Origin: an uncultured Phycisphaerales bacterium
Lineage (GTDB): Bacteria > Planctomycetota > Phycisphaerae > WQYP01
Direction: 5' to 3'
DNA length: 12,700 nt
Assembly (NCBI GenBank): GCA_937901265.1
Contig: CALCHA010000174.1
Location: 1-12,700 of the forward strand
The notes under the pieces were generated by a model. The model saw nothing but the letters and a program-made list of their open reading frames with translations. It was not told where the DNA came from and ran no database searches. This document shows positions 923 through 8,326 of the stretch, piece by piece (position 1 is the first letter of the stretch; every line of letters begins with the position of its first letter). Position numbers and translations under genes: made by a program.

Positions 923-1672
923 CTACCGCGCCACCTGCAGCCGCTCCCCCAGCAGCGGTGGCCATTTCTCGTTGATTGCCCCATCGGTGATCACCAGGTC
1001 CAGCTCGTCGACCGCACAGATCCGCGCCAGACTCTTCCGCCCGAACTTCCCCGAATCCATCAGCAGCACCGACCGCGCCGCCTGCTTCACCGCCAGCCGC
1101 TCCACCTCCGCCATCTCCAGGCTCGAGTTGAACACCTCCGCCTCATACAGCCCCGCGCCGGAAAACAGCATCACGTCCGCATGCAGCCCCGACAGCGCCG
1201 CCGTCGTGATCGGACCGATCAAGACGCCTGTCCGCGGATAATGCGCCCCCCCCACCACCAGCAGTTCCACCCGCTCATCGCCGGCGAAGTGATTCGCCAC
1301 GGTGAGCGAATTCGTCACCACCTGCAGCGGCCGCGCTTCGATCTGCTCGATGCAGTATTGCACCGTCGACCCGCCATCGACATACACCGTCATCCCCGGC
1401 TCGATCATCCGCGCCGCCACGCCGCCGATGGCGCGCTTGGCGTCGACGGCTTCCCGCATGCGTTCTTCGAGGGCCAGCGATGCCGTGGAGCGCGGGCGGA
1501 AGATGACGCCGCCGTGGGTGCGTTCCACCACGCCCTGCCGCTCCAGCACTTCAACGTCGCGCCGCACCGTCGAGCTCGATACTTCCAGCGCCTCAGCCAG
1601 CACTTCGAGCTGCGCCGTGCCGCGCTCCCGCAGGATGTCCAGGAGCTTCTTTTGTCGTTCGACGATCAGCAT
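923..1672 (-). CDS. DeoR/GlpR-family transcriptional regulator
   Basis: A 249-residue protein of normal length for the DeoR family. The N-terminus is the DeoR winged helix-turn-helix (residues about 1-57). Its recognition helix reads VSSSTVRRDVEVLE (31-44), and the wing ends in the family signature RTHGGVIF (51-58). The rest is the effector domain of the isomerase-like fold: YVDGGSTVQY (97-106) corresponds to the phosphate-binding ldsGtT loop, and DLVITDGAI near residue 223 is the usual C-terminal motif. DeoR proteins normally repress sugar catabolic operons and are released by a phosphorylated sugar. Here the likely ligand is fuculose- or rhamnulose-phosphate or a downstream triose phosphate, which is inference from context. 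It sits 32 bp after the aldolase stop as the last BMC-related gene, so it probably autoregulates the operon. Regulators of this family are also found in PVM-type loci. Confidence 0.93.
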   Translation of the reverse strand: MLIVERQKKLLDILRERGTAQLEVLAEALEVSSSTVRRDVEVLERQGVVERTHGGVIFRPRSTASLALEERMREAVDAKRAIGGVAARMIEPGMTVYVDGGSTVQYCIEQIEARPLQVVTNSLTVANHFAGDERVELLVVGGAHYPRTGVLIGPITTAALSGLHADVMLFSGAGLYEAEVFNSSLEMAEVERLAVKQAARSVLLMDSGKFGRKSLARICAVDELDLVITDGAINEKWPPLLGERLQVAR

Positions 1673-1704: not shown

Positions 1705-2586
1705 TTATCTGCCGGTCTTGGCCAGGATCTGGTCGGTCACCTGCTTCACCAGCGCTTCAAACGCCGCATCCGTCACCGGCTGGGCGTTGGGGGCGGCGGA
1801 GGTCCGGGTGACGGTGCCGCCGGCGCAATCGCATGCGGCCGACGCCGCCGTCGTCGTGTCCGGGAACGTGCTGACGTAGGCCTCGTTGTCGACGCCGACG
1901 CAGCCGCTGGGAGCGCACTTCAGCCGCGCATCGGGAATCCCGAACGCCGCCTTCACCTTCAAGAGGTCCGTCATTTCCTGCGCGCTCAGGAAGTTCACCT
2001 TCCCAATCTGTTTGATCAAGAGCAGGATGCGGCAGTACGCATCGATGATTTCCAGCTTGTAGTAGGTGTCCATCAGCGTGTTGGCGAAGCTCACCGTCCC
2101 GTGGTTGCCCAGCAGCACCGTGTTCGTCTCGGCCGTGATCAGCTTCGTCACGCTCTCGCCCAGACCCGCATAGCTCGGCGTCGTGTATTTCGCCGTCGGC
2201 ACCTTGCCCAGGAAGACCTCGGCCTCGGGATGCACCCCCTCCGGTATCGGCACGCCGGCGCAGGCAAAGGCCGTCGCGTGCGGCGGATGGCTGTGAATCA
2301 CCGCCTTCACGTCCGCCCGTTTCTTGTAAATCGCCAGGTGCAGCAGAATCTCGCTGGTCCGCTTGTACTTGTTCTCTTTGTCCACCTGCGCGCCATCCAT
2401 GTCCACGATCGTGATCATGTCCGGCTTCAAAAATCCCTTGCTCAGCCCCGTCGGCGTGCACAGCACCCGATCGTCGCTGATCCGCAGCGAGTGGTTCCCC
2501 TCGTTCCCGGCGCAGAACCCCTTCTGCCAAATCCGGCTTCCCACTTCACACATTTCCTGCTTCAACTGAAACAAGCTCGGATTCAT
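1705..2586 (-). CDS. Class II aldolase (fuculose/rhamnulose-phosphate aldolase type), microcompartment cargo
   Basis: The enzyme cleaves a ketose-1-phosphate to DHAP and lactaldehyde, the entry reaction of PVM-type microcompartments. The start at 2586 is chosen because GAGGA lies about 9 nt upstream and MNPSLFQL begins the family's N-terminal helix; the ATG at 2631 only adds repeat-derived residues. Family motifs: GNEGNHSLRI (27-36), CTPTGLSKG (43-51), TSEILLHL with likely catalytic Glu79, HSHPPH (98-103) with zinc ligands His98 and His100, and GNHG with third ligand His162; these match E73, H92, H94 and H155 of E. coli FucA. The catalytic domain ends near residue 222. A 70-residue extension follows: a linker with Cys224, Cys229, Cys252 and Cys254, then an amphipathic helix TDAAFEALVKQVTDQILAK (272-290) that looks like an encapsulation peptide. 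Sequence alone does not decide between fuculose and rhamnulose phosphate; PVM enzymes are thought to serve both. Confidence 0.93.
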   Translation of the reverse strand: MNPSLFQLKQEMCEVGSRIWQKGFCAGNEGNHSLRISDDRVLCTPTGLSKGFLKPDMITIVDMDGAQVDKENKYKRTSEILLHLAIYKKRADVKAVIHSHPPHATAFACAGVPIPEGVHPEAEVFLGKVPTAKYTTPSYAGLGESVTKLITAETNTVLLGNHGTVSFANTLMDTYYKLEIIDAYCRILLLIKQIGKVNFLSAQEMTDLLKVKAAFGIPDARLKCAPSGCVGVDNEAYVSTFPDTTTAASAACDCAGGTVTRTSAAPNAQPVTDAAFEALVKQVTDQILAKTGR

Positions 2587-2608: not shown

Positions 2609-2681
2609 ACCACGGAGAACACGGAGTCCACGGAGCGGAAACTCGGCTTTTTTCTCAGTGTTCTCCGTGCTCTCCGTGGTT
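2609..2681 (-). repeat. Intergenic hairpin built of CACGGAG units
   Basis: The spacer between the RpiB-like gene and the aldolase holds an inverted repeat. The arm at about 2609-2627 (ACCACGGAGAACACGGAG-type) pairs with 2663-2681 (ACGGAG units in the opposite sense) with one mismatch over about 19 bp. Each arm is itself a tandem of CACGGAGNN units, and a third degenerate unit lies at 2629-2635. The loop is about 35 nt. The TAA stop of the upstream gene (2680-2682) is in the distal arm. There is no U-tract, so a classical terminator is unlikely; an mRNA-stabilising or processing hairpin, or a small dispersed repeat, fits better. Confidence 0.75.
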
Positions 2682-3564
2682 AATAACACATCGCAAGTTC
2701 ATTCAATTCCTTCGCCACCGCCGCCGGCAGCGACCCCACGCCTTCCACAAACGGCTTCACCAGCGGCATCATCCCCTTAAACCCAAACTGCGAATATTCC
2801 ACCACCAGCACATTGGCCCCCAGCATCTCCAGCCCCTCGCTCACCGCCCGCTCCGTCGTGCCGACGATCGCCCGCAAGCTCGGACAGCGGTTCGCATAAC
2901 ACACCCCCCGCGCTGCCGATGGCACGAACAACACCCCGCCGCGCACCTTCCGCCCCTTCACCAGCTGCGCCAACTCCTTCACCGCCCCCTTCAAATTCTC
3001 CCCGCTCGGCCGCTCCCGGCTCGCCAGCAACTGCGGCCGCAACGCCTCCACCACCTTCGCCACGCTCGGACAACTCCCCTCAATCCACCAATACGTCGGC
3101 AGCGCCTTGTCCACCGCCGCGCCCCCCGCGTTTACCTTCACCACCGTCGCCATCTCGTCGCTCATCACGTTGATCGCGTGATCCTTGATGTAATCGTGCG
3201 CCAGCGGCGTCAGCATCGCCCCCTTCGCCAGCCGCACCACCCCGCGCACGCTCTTGAGCTGCGACACCGTGATCACGCCCTTGAGCGCCGTCACCGGCGC
3301 GGGCGATGTCACGGCAACCGTCGGCGGAACCGGTAAACCTCCAGAGGACCCTGCCGCCACCACCGCAGGTGCAGGCGCGCTCTGGAGGTTCTTCAGTTCC
3401 GGAAATTTCGAGTAATCCCCCGTGCACTGCCCAATCGGCGCATGAATCTCCGCTGGCGAAGCGATTCCAGCCCCCCCGGCCCCGCCGCCCGCCCCCGCGG
3501 CGCGAAGCGCAGCCATCACCTGCTCCGCAATCGCCCTCACCAGGTTGGAATCAACATCCGCCAT
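2680..3564 (-). CDS. BMC-associated RpiB/LacA-like protein of unknown function with N-terminal targeting helix
   Basis: The start at 3564 has GGAAGG about 4 nt upstream and gives a protein beginning with an amphipathic helix (LVRAIAEQVMAAL, 8-20), very like BMC encapsulation peptides. Longer readings would overlap the dehydrogenase gene. An Ala/Gly-rich linker follows, then a conserved-looking IGQCTGDYSKFPELKN (44-59), a Pro-rich stretch (66-92), and RLAKGAMLTPLAHDYIKDH (111-129). The last resembles the LTPSAR.LL segment of EutT-type BMC proteins. The C-terminal half (about 155-277) resembles the RpiB/LacA sugar-phosphate isomerase fold: GVCYANRCPSLRAIVGTTE (220-238) and LGANVLVVEY (248-257) align by eye with the RpiB segments around aNk.pGiRAa and ..ANVL. 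The usual catalytic details are not obvious, so isomerase activity is unproven. It lies between dehydrogenase and aldolase, 29 bp from the former. A luminal role in sugar-phosphate handling or a scaffold are both possible. Confidence 0.82.
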   Translation of the reverse strand: MADVDSNLVRAIAEQVMAALRAAGAGGGAGGAGIASPAEIHAPIGQCTGDYSKFPELKNLQSAPAPAVVAAGSSGGLPVPPTVAVTSPAPVTALKGVITVSQLKSVRGVVRLAKGAMLTPLAHDYIKDHAINVMSDEMATVVKVNAGGAAVDKALPTYWWIEGSCPSVAKVVEALRPQLLASRERPSGENLKGAVKELAQLVKGRKVRGGVLFVPSAARGVCYANRCPSLRAIVGTTERAVSEGLEMLGANVLVVEYSQFGFKGMMPLVKPFVEGVGSLPAAVAKELNELAMCY

Positions 3565-3593
3565 CAAACCTTCCGACTTCCGACTTCCCATCG
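3565..3593 (-). repeat. Short CTTCCGA tandem repeat in spacer
   Basis: The spacer between the aldehyde dehydrogenase stop and the RpiB-like start holds about three copies of a 7-bp unit (CTTCCGA on the plus strand, 3569-3588). On the transcribed strand this reads GGAAGT CGGAAGT CGGAAGG, so the last copy supplies the ribosome binding site of the RpiB-like gene. Unlike the other spacers, there is no matching inverted arm here. Confidence 0.6.
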
Positions 3594-4997
3594 TCACACC
3601 ACCCGCAAGCTCCCCGCCATCGTCAACCGCCGAAACCGCGTAAACGTCAACGGATTCGTCACCCCTTCCCCCGTCGGCGTGGCAATCGTATAGCTCGGAT
3701 ACCCCTCGCCCCCGCCGCCCAGCGCCGCCGTGCAAGGCCCGTTCACCACGAACAACGTCGTGTTCATCACCCGCCCCATCCGCGTGATGTTCTGCAGGTT
3801 GTTGGAGTGAATGATCGCCGTGTGCCCGAAGCCATGCTCGTGCTTCACCGCCAGCTCCAGCGCCTTCTCAAAATTCGCCACCCGCACGAACGGCACGAAG
3901 GGCATCATCTGCTCCTCGGGCACAAACGGATTGCTCTCGTCCGTCTCGCCATACAGCAGATCGCACTTCACGCCGCTCATCCCCGCCGCCGCCGCCAGCA
4001 CGCTGCAGTCCTTGCCCACCAGCTCCTTCTGCACCGCCCAGTGGTTGTCCTTCCCCGCAAACGCCTTCTTCGTCAGCGCATCAATCTGCCCCGCATTCAG
4101 CCGCACCGCGCCGTGCCGCGACATCGCATCCATCATCGCATCAAACACCGACGCCACGACGAACACTTCCTTCTCGCCGATGCACAGCAGATTGTTGTCA
4201 AAGCTGGCCCCCGCGATGATCGCCATCGCCGCCCGGTCCAGATCCGCTGTCTCATCTACCACCACCGGCGGATTCCCCGGGCCGCCCACCACCGCCCGCT
4301 TCTTCTGCGACATCGCCGCCCGCGCCACCGCCGGCCCGCCCGTGATCGCCAGCAGCGGCACGTCGGGATGCTCGAAAATCGCGTTGGCGCTCTCCAGCGT
4401 CGGCGGATCAATGATGCAAATCAAATCCTCGATCCCGAACTTCTCCGCGATCGCCTGGTTGTACACCCGCACCGCCATCACCGCGCACTTGTAGCCGCTG
4501 GGATGGGCGTTAATCACCAGCGAATTCCCCGCCGCAATCATGTTGATCGCGTTGGCCGAGAGCGTCGGAATCGAGTGCGTCACCGGCGTCACCACGCCGA
4601 TCACCCCCCACGGCGCCGCCTCATCCATCCCAATGCCCTCATCCCCTGAATGCGCCACGCTCTTCAAAAACTCCACCCCCGGCACGCCCGCCAGCCAGTG
4701 CAGCTTCTCAATCTTGTGGTCCAGCCGCCCCACCTTGCTCTCCTCCAGCTCGATCTTCCCCCACGAATCCGCGTTCTCAATGGCAATCCGCTTGATCATC
4801 TTGCAGATCGCATCGCGCACCTTGACGCCCTTATCCGCCAGTTGCTTCTGCGCCCGCTTGGCCGCCTCCACCGCCGTGTTCACATCCTTGAACACGCCAA
4901 ACGCCCCCGACGACGCGCGCGCCGCAGGAACGCCCCCCGGAGAAAGCTGCGACAGCACTTCCCGAACCACTGCTTGTATGAGAGCGGACTGATCCAT
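3594..4997 (-). CDS. CoA-acylating aldehyde dehydrogenase (PduP-like), microcompartment cargo
   Basis: A 467-residue enzyme matching PduP/EutE size and layout. It oxidises an aldehyde, here most likely lactaldehyde, with NAD+ and CoA to the acyl-CoA inside the shell. GAGG lies 9 nt upstream of the ATG. Residues 4-18 (SALIQAVVREVLSQL) form the N-terminal encapsulation helix, followed by a Gly/Pro/Ala linker and then the catalytic domain from about residue 33. Visible motifs are PWGVIGVVTPVTH (129-141) and NAINMIAAGNSLVINAHPSG (149-168) of the nucleotide fold, LLAITGGPAVARAAM (215-229), and FDNNLLCIGEKEV (266-278), where Cys272 is the nucleophile (Cys269 in Salmonella PduP). Homologues in Pdu and Eut systems use propionaldehyde and acetaldehyde. 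The aldolase downstream argues for lactaldehyde, which is the PVM assignment. The gene is flanked by repeat-filled spacers on both sides. Confidence 0.95.
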   Translation of the reverse strand: MDQSALIQAVVREVLSQLSPGGVPAARASSGAFGVFKDVNTAVEAAKRAQKQLADKGVKVRDAICKMIKRIAIENADSWGKIELEESKVGRLDHKIEKLHWLAGVPGVEFLKSVAHSGDEGIGMDEAAPWGVIGVVTPVTHSIPTLSANAINMIAAGNSLVINAHPSGYKCAVMAVRVYNQAIAEKFGIEDLICIIDPPTLESANAIFEHPDVPLLAITGGPAVARAAMSQKKRAVVGGPGNPPVVVDETADLDRAAMAIIAGASFDNNLLCIGEKEVFVVASVFDAMMDAMSRHGAVRLNAGQIDALTKKAFAGKDNHWAVQKELVGKDCSVLAAAAGMSGVKCDLLYGETDESNPFVPEEQMMPFVPFVRVANFEKALELAVKHEHGFGHTAIIHSNNLQNITRMGRVMNTTLFVVNGPCTAALGGGGEGYPSYTIATPTGEGVTNPLTFTRFRRLTMAGSLRVV

Positions 4998-5120: not shown

Positions 5121-5384
5121 TCAAATCTTCGCCGTATCCTCGTGCGGCCGCGCGATCACGCTGCTCGAAACAATCTGCCCCAGCCGCCCGCCCGCCGCCA
5201 CGCCGGCATCGATCGCCGCGCGAACCGCCGAGACGTCGCCTTCGAACAGGATCGCGACCAGGCCGTTGCCCACGCGATGCTGCCCCTTGTACGTCACGTT
5301 CGCCGCCTTCAGGGCCGCATCCGCCGCCTCAAAAGTCGCCACCAGCCCCTTGCACTCAATCATTCCCAAAGCCTGCTGCGCCAT
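5121..5384 (-). CDS. BMC-H hexameric shell protein (87 aa)
   Basis: A single-domain Pfam00936-type shell protein of typical length. It carries the family signatures: QALGMIECKGLVATFEAADA at the N-terminus, LKAANVTY, the pore-loop region VGNGLVAILFEGDVSAVRAA (residues about 38-57), and a C-terminal VIARPHED. Such proteins form hexamers that tile into the facets of the microcompartment, and the central pore loop (here GNG) gates metabolites. AAGGGA lies 6 nt upstream of the ATG, a good ribosome binding site. It lies between the acetokinase and the dehydrogenase. It differs from the other two BMC-H proteins in the strand before the pore (YKGQHR) and probably has a separate pore chemistry. No tandem second domain is present, so it is not a BMC-T. 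Confidence 0.97.
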   Translation of the reverse strand: MAQQALGMIECKGLVATFEAADAALKAANVTYKGQHRVGNGLVAILFEGDVSAVRAAIDAGVAAGGRLGQIVSSSVIARPHEDTAKI

Positions 5385-5402: not shown

Positions 5403-5442
5403 AAGTCTTCGTGACCTTCGTTTCTTCGTGCCTTCGTGCTTA
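5403..5442 (-). repeat. CTTCGTG tandem repeat in spacer
   Basis: Four CTTCGTG-like units (plus-strand sense) spaced 7-9 bp fill the gap between the acetokinase stop and the next shell gene. The acetokinase TAA stop lies at the edge of the last unit. No inverted partner is seen, so a strong hairpin is not expected. It is one of several different short-period repeats that occupy the operon's spacers. Confidence 0.65.
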
Positions 5443-6636
5443 ATTCGATCCCAACACAGCCACCGTCAGCCGCGCCACGATCAATTCCTCATTCGTTGGC
5501 AACATCCAAATTTGTACCGCCCCAGTCCCATCATCCAGCCGCGCTTCAATGTTCCCGCGCGCACGTTTGTTCTTCCCTGCATCCAGCCGAATCCCCGCAA
5601 ACGCCATCCCCTCCAGAATCGCCGCCCGAATCGCCGCCCCGTTCTGCCCGATCCCTCCCGTAAACGTGATCGCATCCACCCCATGCAGTACCGCCAGATA
5701 CGCCCCGAGATAATGGCGGCACGCCTCGACAAACACATCCACCGCCAGCTGCGCCCGTTTGTCCCCCGCCGCCGCCTTCTCCTCCACCTCCCGCATGTCC
5801 TGGCTCCCCGCCATCCCCAGCATCCCGCTTTCCTTGCCGAGCTTTTTCCAGATCGTGTCCAGATCAACGCCCTGCTTCAAAAGCTTCATCATCGCAAACG
5901 CATCGAAATCCCCCACCCGCGCCGCATGCGGAATGCCCGTCTGCGTCGTCATTCCGAAACTGTTGGCAACGCTCTTTCCATCCTCGATCGCCGTCACCGA
6001 GCAGGAGCCGCCCAGGTGCAAATTGATGATCCGCCGGCATTCCGGGGCGATTTCCTTCATCCGTGTCGCGATGTAGCGGTGCGACGCTCCGTGAAACCCA
6101 TACCGCCGAATGCCCAGCTTCTCCGTCCACTCGTGCGGTATCGCATACGCCTGCCGCTTCAGCGGAATCGTCTGGTGATACCCCGTCTCAAACGCCGCCA
6201 CCTGCGGAACGTTTGGCAGCCGCCGGGCAAACGCCTTCATCGCCGCGATGTAGGGTGGATTGTGCAGCGGGGCCACATCCGAAAATTCCTGCATCACCGC
6301 CAGAACATGATCATCCACCCTCACCGCACCGCCCGTGTCCTTCCCCAGCGGCCCGCCATGCACCGCCTTGAACCCGATCGCCTGCACATCATCGATCGAC
6401 GAGATCACGCCCGCTTTGGCCAGCGCGCCCAGCAAAAGCTCGATCGCCGCCGCATGGTCCGCGAGGTCCGTCGTCCCGGAAACCTTCGGCGAACCGCCCG
6501 CCGTCAGCCACCAGGCCGAATTCCCCTGACCGATGCGGTCCGCAGCGCCCTCCGCCAACACGCTCTCGCCCTTCGACATGTCGAAAAGCTTGAACTTGAA
6601 GGTCGTGGTGCCGATGTTGGAAACGAGAACGAGCAT
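5440..6636 (-). CDS. Divergent acetate/propionate kinase family protein (ackA-like)
   Basis: A 398-residue member of the acetokinase (ASKHA) family, expected to transfer phosphate from an acyl phosphate to ADP as the ATP-yielding last step. Family landmarks: VLVSNIGTTTFKFKLFD (2-18) replaces the usual V.N.GSSSlKf, then VHGGPLG (92-98), APLHNPP (122-128), FETGYHQT (149-156), YGFHGASHRY (179-188), HLGG (207-210), GIPHAARVGDFD (234-245), GIGQN (328-332) and PTNEEL (380-385). Against Methanosarcina acetate kinase, N7, H180, R241 and E384 have counterparts, but R91 is Lys90, D148 is Glu150, the pocket residue P232 is Thr231, and the GIGEN motif reads GIGQN. These changes suggest another substrate, plausibly lactyl phosphate. 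No obvious encapsulation helix is present, so it may be cytosolic. The ribosome binding site is weak (GGA about 6 nt upstream). Confidence 0.9.
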   Translation of the reverse strand: MLVLVSNIGTTTFKFKLFDMSKGESVLAEGAADRIGQGNSAWWLTAGGSPKVSGTTDLADHAAAIELLLGALAKAGVISSIDDVQAIGFKAVHGGPLGKDTGGAVRVDDHVLAVMQEFSDVAPLHNPPYIAAMKAFARRLPNVPQVAAFETGYHQTIPLKRQAYAIPHEWTEKLGIRRYGFHGASHRYIATRMKEIAPECRRIINLHLGGSCSVTAIEDGKSVANSFGMTTQTGIPHAARVGDFDAFAMMKLLKQGVDLDTIWKKLGKESGMLGMAGSQDMREVEEKAAAGDKRAQLAVDVFVEACRHYLGAYLAVLHGVDAITFTGGIGQNGAAIRAAILEGMAFAGIRLDAGKNKRARGNIEARLDDGTGAVQIWMLPTNEELIVARLTVAVLGSN

Positions 6637-6647
6637 GGAGGATCCGA

Positions 6648-6744
6648 AGAAGTCAGAAGTCAGAATTGAGAAGTCAGAAGCCCGAAACGAGAACAGATGT
6701 TCGCAGCGAACCTTCTGTCTTCTCGCTTCTCACTTCTGACTTCT
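6648..6744 (-). repeat. Intergenic hairpin built of GAAGTCA units
   Basis: Arms at 6648-6680 and 6712-6744 are complementary at 29 of 33 positions by hand alignment. Each arm is a tandem of 7-bp GAAGTCA or GAGAAGT units, and the loop is 31 nt. It lies between the stop of the interrupted BMC-H gene (6747) and the acetokinase start (6636). It has the same layout as the hairpins near 5013, 7025 and 7490 but a different unit sequence. There is no U-tract, so I do not call it a terminator. Confidence 0.85.
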
Positions 6745-6746
6745 CG

Positions 6747-7010
6747 TCAGAAATTCCCCATCAACCCTTCCGTCGGCCGCGCAATCACGTGCGAGGCGAT
6801 CAGCTCGCCCGAACGCTGCGCCGCCGCCGCGCCGGCAGCCACGGCCGCCTTCACCGAACCGACGTCGCCCGTCACGATCGCCGTGACCTACGCCCCGCCA
6901 ATCTGCAGCGTCTTGACCAGCGTCACGTTCGCCGCCTTCAGCATCGCGTCGGTCGCCTCAATCAGCGGAACCTGCCCCTTGGTCTCGATAATTCCCAGTG
7001 CCTGTGACAT
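6747..7010 (-). pseudogene. BMC-H shell protein gene interrupted by an in-frame TAG
   Basis: Translation from the ATG at 7010 gives a typical BMC-H protein: [26 protein letters not shown], then LQIGGA, a TAG codon at 6890-6888 (codon 41), then VTAIVTGDVGSVKAAV and VIARPTEGLM to TGA at 6747. The frame on both sides of the TAG is intact and conserved. Read through, the product would be 87 residues, exactly the length of the intact BMC-H at 5121-5384. Related shell proteins often have Tyr at this point (GG.YVT), so a TAC or TAT to TAG change is likely. GAGG lies 6 nt upstream of the ATG, so translation signals remain. The break falls in the pore-loop region, and a 40-residue product could not fold. 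A recent nonsense mutation, a sequencing or assembly error, or stop suppression are the options. TAG is used as a normal terminator by neighbouring genes (pduL, acpS, DeoR), which argues against global recoding. Confidence 0.88.
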
Positions 7011-7024
7011 ATGAACCTCGTGTT

Positions 7025-7156
7025 GGTTGAGTAGTTAAATGGTCAAGTGGTCAAATAAGTCCGAACACCCATGATGCCTCGCAGGCAAGTGGTTTTCGCG
7101 GCCGTGGTCAATGCATCGCTGCATACTGAACCACTCAACCATTTAACCACTGAACC
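7025..7156 (-). repeat. Intergenic hairpin B of the GGTTAAGT repeat family
   Basis: Arms at 7025-7055 and 7126-7156 match at 24 of 31 positions by hand alignment, several differences being G-U compatible in the minus-strand RNA. The hairpin occupies nearly the whole gap between the BMC-H stop (7164) and the next BMC-H start (7010), ending about 6 nt before its GAGG. The loop holds a small perfect inverted repeat, ATGCA-N4-TGCAT (7111-7124). That loop segment resembles the GCATCGCAGCATAC of hairpin C, which indicates that B and C are copies of one element. Confidence 0.82.
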
Positions 7157-7163
7157 CGTCGCC

Positions 7164-7475
7164 TCACTTCTTCGGAGCCGCCGCCGCCACGGAAGCATCT
7201 TTCTTCTTCGGCAGCAGATGGAACAAATCATCGTGCGGCCGCGCGATCACATGCACCGCCAGCACTTCGCCAATTTTCCCTGCCGCATCCGCCGCCGCGT
7301 CCACGGCCGCTTTCACAGCGCCCACGTCGCCCACGACGAAGCTCGTCACCATGCCCGAGCCCACCTTGTCCCAGCCGGCCATCGTCACGTTCGCCGCTTT
7401 CAACATCGCGTCGCTCGCCTCGATCAGCGCCGTCAACCCGCGCGTTTCGATCATCCCCAGTGCCTGGTTCGCCAT
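7164..7475 (-). CDS. BMC-H hexameric shell protein with Lys-rich C-terminal tail (103 aa)
   Basis: A Pfam00936-type shell hexamer. Motifs: [29 protein letters not shown], the pore region [20 protein letters not shown] (about 38-57) and VIARPHDDL (78-86). The domain is followed by a 17-residue tail, [17 protein letters not shown] then KK, which the intact 87-residue paralogue lacks. The pore loop reads GSG. AAGGAG lies 5 nt upstream of the ATG, the best ribosome binding site in the operon, consistent with a major shell component being made in quantity. It is the first shell gene after pduL. The interrupted paralogue follows directly, and the two N-termini are very similar, which suggests a local duplication. 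Confidence 0.97.
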
Positions 7476-7489
7476 GTCTGCTCCTTACC

Positions 7490-7622
7490 GGTTAAGTAGT
7501 TAAGTGGTTGAATGGTTAAGTGCTTGACGGAGACCTCACCCGATCCCGCCGCCGAAACGCCCACGCGGCCGGCCCGCTGCATCGCAGCATACGTAACCAC
7601 TTAACCATTTAACTATTTGACC
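7490..7622 (-). repeat. Intergenic hairpin C of the GGTTAAGT repeat family
   Basis: Arms at 7490-7520 and 7592-7622 match at 25 of 31 positions by hand alignment. The right arm includes the last codons and TAG stop of pduL (7613-7615), so part of the repeat is coding. The left arm ends 3 nt before the AAGGAG of the downstream shell gene. The 71-nt GC-rich loop contains a perfect GCTGC-ATC-GCAGC hairpin (7576-7588). The arms resemble those of the hairpins at 5013-5117 and 7025-7156. Confidence 0.83.
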
Positions 7623-8326
7623 AACTCCATCCGCGTCGCCGTCTGCAAATGACACGCGTTCCCTTCATCCGTGTCAATATGCACTTCCAGCTTCACCTTC
7701 GGGTGATAACGCACTTTCACATTTTCAAACGTCAGCCCGCAGGGCCCGTCGATCTTCAATTTCATCGAATCCCCATCTTTCACCCCGAAATGCTTCATGT
7801 CCGCTTCCGACATGTGCACGTGCCGCGCCGCCCGTATCACCCCTTCCCGCAGGTTCAACGCCCCGTGCGGCCCCACCACCACGCACCCGGCGCTCCCCTT
7901 GATATCCCCCGAAATCCGCAGTGGCAGATCAATCCCCATGAAAATGCCGTCCGTGTAGGACAGCTCGATCTGCGTGAACTTCCGCAATCCCCCCAGAATC
8001 CGCACCCCCGGAATCATCCGATTCTTGGGTCCAATGATATTCACCAGCTGCTCGCTGGCGAATTCCCCCTCCTGGTACAGATTCTTCAATTTCGTCAGCT
8101 TCGACCCCGGCCCAAACAGCACCTCAAGGTCCTCCTGCGTCACATGCATGTGCCGCGCGGAAACGTTGACCAGCAACGGGTTCGGCCCCGCGTTCGACGA
8201 CTGCGCCCGCACCAGCTCCGGCACGCCCACCCCACCCGAGCCCGCCGCCACCATCTGCCCGCGCAACGCTTTGCGCACCAGCTCTTCCACCTGCCGTCGA
8301 TCCATACCCGCCACCGCTGTGCTCAT
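7613..8326 (-). CDS. pduL: PduL-type phosphotransacylase, microcompartment cargo
   Basis: A PduL-family enzyme that exchanges CoA for phosphate on an acyl-CoA, recycling CoA inside the shell and making the acyl phosphate used by the acetokinase. It has the two PduL domains with their metal-binding histidines: SARHMHVT (His59, His61), AARHVHMS (His169, His171) and LEVHIDTDEGNAC (His216). These correspond in spacing to H48, H50, H157, H159 and H204 of the Rhodopseudomonas enzyme, which binds two zinc ions. YQEGEFASEQLV (84-95) and IPGVRILGG (105-113) are also typical. Residues 8-25 (MDRRQVEELVRKALRGQM) form the N-terminal encapsulation helix, joined by a Gly-rich linker. GGAGAG lies 6 nt upstream of the chosen ATG. 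As first gene after the regulatory gap it probably heads the operon. Substrate here is likely lactyl-CoA, by context. Confidence 0.96.
   Translation of the reverse strand: MSTAVAGMDRRQVEELVRKALRGQMVAAGSGGVGVPELVRAQSSNAGPNPLLVNVSARHMHVTQEDLEVLFGPGSKLTKLKNLYQEGEFASEQLVNIIGPKNRMIPGVRILGGLRKFTQIELSYTDGIFMGIDLPLRISGDIKGSAGCVVVGPHGALNLREGVIRAARHVHMSEADMKHFGVKDGDSMKLKIDGPCGLTFENVKVRYHPKVKLEVHIDTDEGNACHLQTATRMELVK

Follow-up and report, generated by a model that had tools for sequence, protein, structure and literature searches.

The draft genome of an uncultured Phycisphaerales bacterium shows, in a locus for a bacterial microcompartment, a BMC-H shell gene whose reading frame is interrupted by a single TAG codon. 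This raises the question of whether the strain has lost a shell protein, whether the stop is bypassed in the cell, or whether the stop exists only in the assembled sequence. The window examined here, 12,700 nucleotides in length, is the whole of one contig (C174) from a 3.41 Mb draft genome that is distributed over 707 contigs and is 81.6% complete.

A shell gene with one internal stop

The interrupted gene, here called X, opens with an ATG at position 7010 on the minus strand and continues to a TGA that ends at position 6747, a frame of 88 codons including the terminator. It contains exactly one internal stop, the TAG at codon 41 that a first-pass annotation had reported. The parts of the gene are as follows.

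6747 to 7010, minus strand: X, the middle BMC-H shell gene with its internal stop (PF00936, 91.7 bits, frame to TGA)
6888 to 6890, minus strand: codon 41, TAG, the in-frame stop directly after the Gly-Gly-Ala loop
6891 to 7010, minus strand: 40-codon product ending at the TAG, the first half of the BMC domain (PF00936 positions 1-36)
6747 to 6875, minus strand: downstream open stretch of 42 codons with a GTG start at codon 46, the second half of the BMC domain (PF00936 positions 43-75)

When read through the TAG, X matches all 75 positions of PF00936 with one TAG inside the match, and it is the highest-scoring of the three PF00936 matches in the source genome. Read in this way, X has the single, whole PF00936 domain of BMC-H shell proteins such as PduA, EutM and similar proteins. 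Unlike single-domain hexameric BMC-H proteins, however, it has a stop in frame where the residue that follows the pore loop should be, and in the given sequence the frame for a full subunit is therefore interrupted at codon 41.

The halves on either side of the TAG each match their own part of the profile, and each scores above the PF00936 cut-off when searched separately, in agreement with the earlier statement that the frame stays open and family-like in both directions. A frameshift or a misread gene boundary was ruled out, since an open, conserved frame extends to either side of the TAG. A good ribosome binding site had also been claimed, and a plausible one can be read upstream of the start codon as CACGAGGTTCAT-ATG. 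A scan for promoters and terminators gave nothing linkable to the stop in X.

The first-pass annotation had placed the stop in the pore loop. We located codon 41 in solved structures through P0001, the intact protein nearest to X, which is closest in sequence to 6ner (a BMC-H tandem fusion) and then to PduA and EutM-type chains. In 6ner and in 7mmx (PduA) the codon aligns to a Tyr or Leu that follows GGG. The stop is thus next to the loop, at the residue straight after Gly-Gly-Ala, but not inside it.

The position of the break invites the idea of a split shell protein, a single BMC-H subunit built from the 40-residue half and a second half whose translation restarts at the GTG at 6875. Each piece matches its own part of PF00936, the break adjoins the pore loop, and circularly permuted BMC-H proteins are known among solved structures (5hpn, 6nlu). 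Against this, a restart at codon 46 would omit codons 42-45 of X, and the split form is found in no relative examined. We regard this arrangement as the most improbable of those considered.

Imperfect inverted repeats flank X, one downstream at 6648-6744 (33-base arms, 88% complementary) and one upstream at 7025-7156 (27-base arms, 85% complementary). The word GAAGTCAGAAG of the downstream repeat is found 8 times, on 4 of the 61 contigs searched from the source genome, and the word ACCATTTAACCACT of the upstream repeat occurs twice in the same 61 contigs, both times within the window (5010 and 7138). Neither word is present in 14 same-family loci.

Gene content of the microcompartment locus

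X lies between an intact paralogue, D, and an acetate kinase gene. The other genes of the locus are, in their order:

7613 to 8326, minus strand: PduL-type phosphate propanoyltransferase (PF06130, 230 bits; NF011652 above cut-off)
7164 to 7475, minus strand: D, the upstream BMC-H paralogue, intact (PF00936, 90.7 bits)
5440 to 6636, minus strand: acetate/propionate kinase (PF00871; TIGR00016 above cut-off)
5121 to 5384, minus strand: E, the downstream BMC-H paralogue, intact (PF00936)
3594 to 4997, minus strand: aldehyde dehydrogenase (PF00171; NF011927 above cut-off)
2680 to 3567: operon gene with a weak ethanolamine-utilization match (TIGR02536, below cut-off) and no Pfam match
1705 to 2586, minus strand: class II aldolase, the PVM signature enzyme (PF00596, 154.4 bits in a search run on 1705-2631)
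923 to 1672, minus strand: DeoR-family regulator (PF00455 and PF08220)

In PMC4207490, microcompartment loci of the Planctomycetes/Verrucomicrobia type (PVM) are described as having a class II aldolase as signature enzyme, an aldehyde dehydrogenase and a PduL-type phosphotransacylase as core enzymes, a DeoR regulator and an acetate kinase as ancillary components, and a lactate/malate dehydrogenase-type gene as the predicted core alcohol dehydrogenase. The window shares the aldolase, the regulator, both the acetate kinase and the PduL-type enzyme, the aldehyde dehydrogenase and the BMC-H genes with these loci and, judged by this gene content, is a PVM-type microcompartment locus. It differs from the PVM loci of that description in the TAG within one BMC-H copy, and no BMC-P gene was found in it. 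No lactate/malate dehydrogenase-type gene was found among the nine window proteins scanned. Three PF03319 (BMC-P) matches are located on another contig (C341), a separation that may reflect contig breaks only; the incomplete genome thus has three PF00936 and three PF03319 matches. The gene at 2680-3567 shows 35-42% identity to its counterparts in 12 same-family loci.

The presence of two further intact BMC-H genes, D and E, would fit a real and very recent nonsense mutation, by which the strain lost X and kept its two paralogues. Translation would then end after 40 residues, and half a BMC domain should neither fold nor join hexamers. The third paralogue seems to matter, however, since three BMC-H copies are present in 72 of 80 related stretches that were fetched (four copies in four, two copies in four) and in 15 of 16 further same-family genomes that have a PF00936 match; the remaining one (G026) is an incomplete draft with two. 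We consider a real nonsense mutation a serious possibility that falls somewhat short of an even chance.

Codon 41 in relatives

To our searches that read through stops, the stop in the window is the only one of its kind. It is unique among 92 PF00936 matches in 61 genomes (the source genome and 60 relatives, 26 of them with matches), and also among the 150 matches listed when 392 Planctomycetota genomes, 120 of which have a match, were searched with an alignment of the orthologues; the latter count was made by hand. A search of 397 genomes of the class likewise gave no stop among the matches listed, although the window's own match is not among these and no rate can be taken from them.

The first-pass annotation had proposed that the codon be compared in close relatives, and all 80 related loci have a sense codon at this position (Leu 42, Phe 17, Tyr 14, Met 7), and none of the genes contains an internal stop. 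These loci were collected with two peptide patterns. Because the last position of one pattern is [YF] at codon 41, the collection is biased against a stop there; the 42 loci with Leu came in through the other pattern. The 61-genome and 392-genome searches are free of this bias. The 14 same-family loci (Tyr 11, Phe 3) are, judged by their lengths, the same contigs as those of 14 genomes in the 61-genome search, and these counts overlap.

Tyr had been described as frequent at this position, and it is indeed the commonest residue among the best 120 of 1150 protein matches (Y 81, F 38, L 1; with a narrower offset range, F 37 and I 1). These proteins are translated open reading frames that are unable to hold an internal stop, and they indicate the usual residue rather than test for a stop. 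Among named genomes, the closest relatives are metagenome-derived and carry the label Planctomycetota or Phycisphaerales.

A protein search with the 40-residue product returned three proteins: the product itself, encoded by a contig that has the window's length of 12,700 bases, and two longer proteins of 59 and 68 residues that continue past codon 41 with Tyr or Phe. The shortened form was thus found on no contig other than one of 12,700 bases. A stop common to a clade was rejected because it is absent from every relative examined, whether in the 61 genomes, the 80 loci or the 150 matches listed from 392 genomes. As far as could be seen from these comparisons, the stop looks private to this contig.

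Several other unusual gene forms were encountered. P0122, an X-type BMC-H protein of 59 residues encoded on a 24,759-base contig, stops at codon 59 and has Asn at codon 58; it could be either a further shortened copy, in a relative, or a gene truncated by the end of its contig. In nine loci the D paralogue seemed to contain a stop, but these stops fall at alignment positions 88 to 102 of 93 to 107 and were read as the genes' own terminators. P0129, P0137 and P0073 (141-172 residues) have a whole or partial D-like BMC-H domain that runs into an X-like one. Two are encoded on contigs of 1415 and 990 bases and the third on a contig of 28,584 bases, and they are apparent tandem fusions of neighbouring shell genes or assembly products. 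Among titles and the beginnings of abstracts, we encountered no paper on premature stop codons in microcompartment shell proteins, and the words 'pseudogene' and 'stop codon' are both absent from the main text of PMC8217296.

A near-identical intact protein and a second private residue

P0001, the nearest database protein, is full length at 87 residues and matches PF00936 at 96.4 bits. It shares 85 of its 87 residues with X and departs from it only at codon 41 (Tyr versus the stop) and codon 58 (Asp versus Ala). P0001 is encoded on a single contig of 2119 bases and may come from another strain; a search with the D paralogue for a neighbour on that contig found none among the best 120 matches.

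6837 to 6839, minus strand: codon 58, GCT (Ala), the second difference from P0001, which has Asp; all 80 loci have Asp or Glu here

Codon 58 was missed by the first-pass annotation, whose interpretation as a whole is partly supported. The residue is also acidic in 117 of the best 120 of 1150 protein matches, and the remaining three, all ranked 73rd or lower, have Ala. Only one of 81 sequences assigned to X has Ala at this position (L125, 43% identity).

The change at codon 58 can be aligned with either of the two leading explanations. Loss of an almost universal acidic residue in addition to the stop is expected of a gene free of selection, and under a nonsense mutation it would represent early relaxed constraint. 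If the stop is instead a consensus error, the two odd codons, only 51 nucleotides apart, may stem from the same poor reads. Private residues are, however, not confined to X. At columns that are invariant in same-family loci, a set in which the window's genome is the sole member of its genus, the window has 4 deviating sites in X, and seven other operon genes have 3 to 25 each. At columns at least 97% conserved by class, deviations number two in the aldolase, none in the aldehyde dehydrogenase, two in ackA, one in X (codon 58), none in D and one in pduL. The change at codon 58 is therefore no clear excess over the other operon genes, and because these genes also have private residues at conserved sites, it is weak evidence for either error or mutation.

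TAG as a terminator in the source genome

Genomes that reassign or suppress TAG form a known kind, and the shared feature here is an in-frame TAG in a conserved gene. The source genome differs from them by having RF1, by its normal use of TAG as a terminator and by the absence of a second TAG that passes our scan of 374 kb. The RF1 gene, on contig C550, matches its profile from position 5 to 358 of 361 with a score of 404 bits, a little under the curated cut-off of 423, and its product carries the release-factor motifs GGQ and PVT. TAG ends 20 of 139 long open reading frames with coding-like codon use in 61 sampled contigs. It also ends three genes in the window (deoR, pduL and an acpS-like gene), as had been pointed out for neighbouring genes. 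The amber suppressor tRNA that the first-pass annotation had suggested seeking was not detected: no CUA anticodon is present among 20 tRNAs typed by ARAGORN, an incomplete set that has no tRNA for several amino acids and comes from an incomplete genome. One more weak tRNA match (25.2 bits), at a contig start, was left untyped.

A codon-usage scan of 61 contigs (374,152 bases) gave 54 stops past the first threshold and two past all filters, of which the TAG in X is the stronger; by this measure it is distinct from a chance stop. The sample consisted of the window, contigs C1 to C40 and 20 contigs picked because they were named in earlier analyses, and it is not random. Sensitivity was 40% (1065 of 2660 planted stops recovered), as measured on the model's own training open reading frames, and at this sensitivity no second in-frame TAG passed all filters. 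The other candidate is a TGA at L181:6228, on the plus strand of contig C550, with coding-like open stretches of 416 and 174 codons on either side; it may separate neighbouring genes that share a frame, or it may interrupt one gene.

Genome-wide recoding of TAG was rejected because RF1 is present, TAG serves as a terminator and the scan gave no second in-frame TAG. The earlier view that general recoding is unlikely is strengthened by the first two of these observations, and the incomplete set of typed tRNAs includes none with CUA.

The same observations bear on read-through of this one codon, whether programmed or background, by a suppressor or near-cognate tRNA, which would yield a short and a full-length shell protein. 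The frame downstream of the TAG is conserved to its end, and the stop comes straight after the pore loop, where a shortened form is at least imaginable. Against read-through are the presence of RF1, the ordinary use of TAG as a terminator, the lack of a typed CUA tRNA and the absence of the stop from every relative examined, and codon 58 would be left unexplained. We judge such read-through to be very improbable. A version in which the TAG is real and is read through at some rate, so that a 40-residue half-subunit is made beside the full subunit and the share of X in the shell is tuned, seems slightly less probable again. Of the three options in the first-pass annotation, loss and single-base error both still stand, whereas suppression into short and full forms has gained no positive support, with no stop in the relatives examined and no CUA tRNA found in the incomplete genome.

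Consensus error or recent mutation

We consider the TAG in X to be most likely a consensus error in a fragmented draft, an explanation to which we give about an even chance. A highly fragmented metagenome assembly would have taken the wrong base from poor reads at codon 41, and the unusual codon 58 may stem from the same reads. The organism would then make a normal 87-residue BMC-H protein, and the stop would be nonexistent in the cell.

Several observations are consistent with such an error. P0001 is intact, the stop occurs in no relative examined, the 40-residue form was found only on a contig of 12,700 bases, and the draft is both fragmented and incomplete. Coverage values of 1.75 to 8.2 are given in the titles of 13 of 14 same-family loci, which indicates that low depth is common in the group, the window's own value not being among these. 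Furthermore, PMC4787001 reports that substitution errors in one HiSeq metagenome data set cluster, with G preferentially replacing A, C or T; this bias fits the base found at codon 41.

Other observations weigh against an error. The error-prone 3-mers given in PMC4787001 are absent before the third base of codon 41 on both strands, assuming that the third base is the one that changed. On the gene strand, TGG precedes the middle base of codon 58, but it ranks only third in that paper, for MiSeq R1. The assembly does not look rich in errors, as internal stops are present in 0 of 43 ABC-transporter matches and 0 of 28 response-regulator matches in the source genome. Ala at codon 58 has the few precedents noted above, private residues occur in other operon genes too, and P0001, whose source is labelled only '-', a mark also applied to proteins that the window encodes, may represent another strain.

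A real nonsense mutation accommodates some of these points, since the given sequence is unambiguous at codon 41 and there is no general excess of stops that would point to a bad assembly. It is less easily reconciled with the state of the gene, which has no frameshift and no decay beyond two codons and is otherwise identical to P0001, and with the shortened form having been found on no other contig. There is little to choose between the fit of an error and that of a recent nonsense mutation, and the chances given here are judgements, none of them computed. We infer that the cause is an error and not a real mutation, such that the interruption would not be a real feature of the cell; this reading is only slightly ahead of a real, ordinary pseudogene.

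Implications

Lone in-frame stops in draft metagenome genomes call for checks against reads and near-identical copies before gene loss or recoding is claimed. If the TAG in X is real and bypassed, it would represent an unusual way of setting the composition of a microcompartment shell. If it is a true nonsense mutation, it would show the loss, in one strain, of a member of a conserved set of three shell paralogues.
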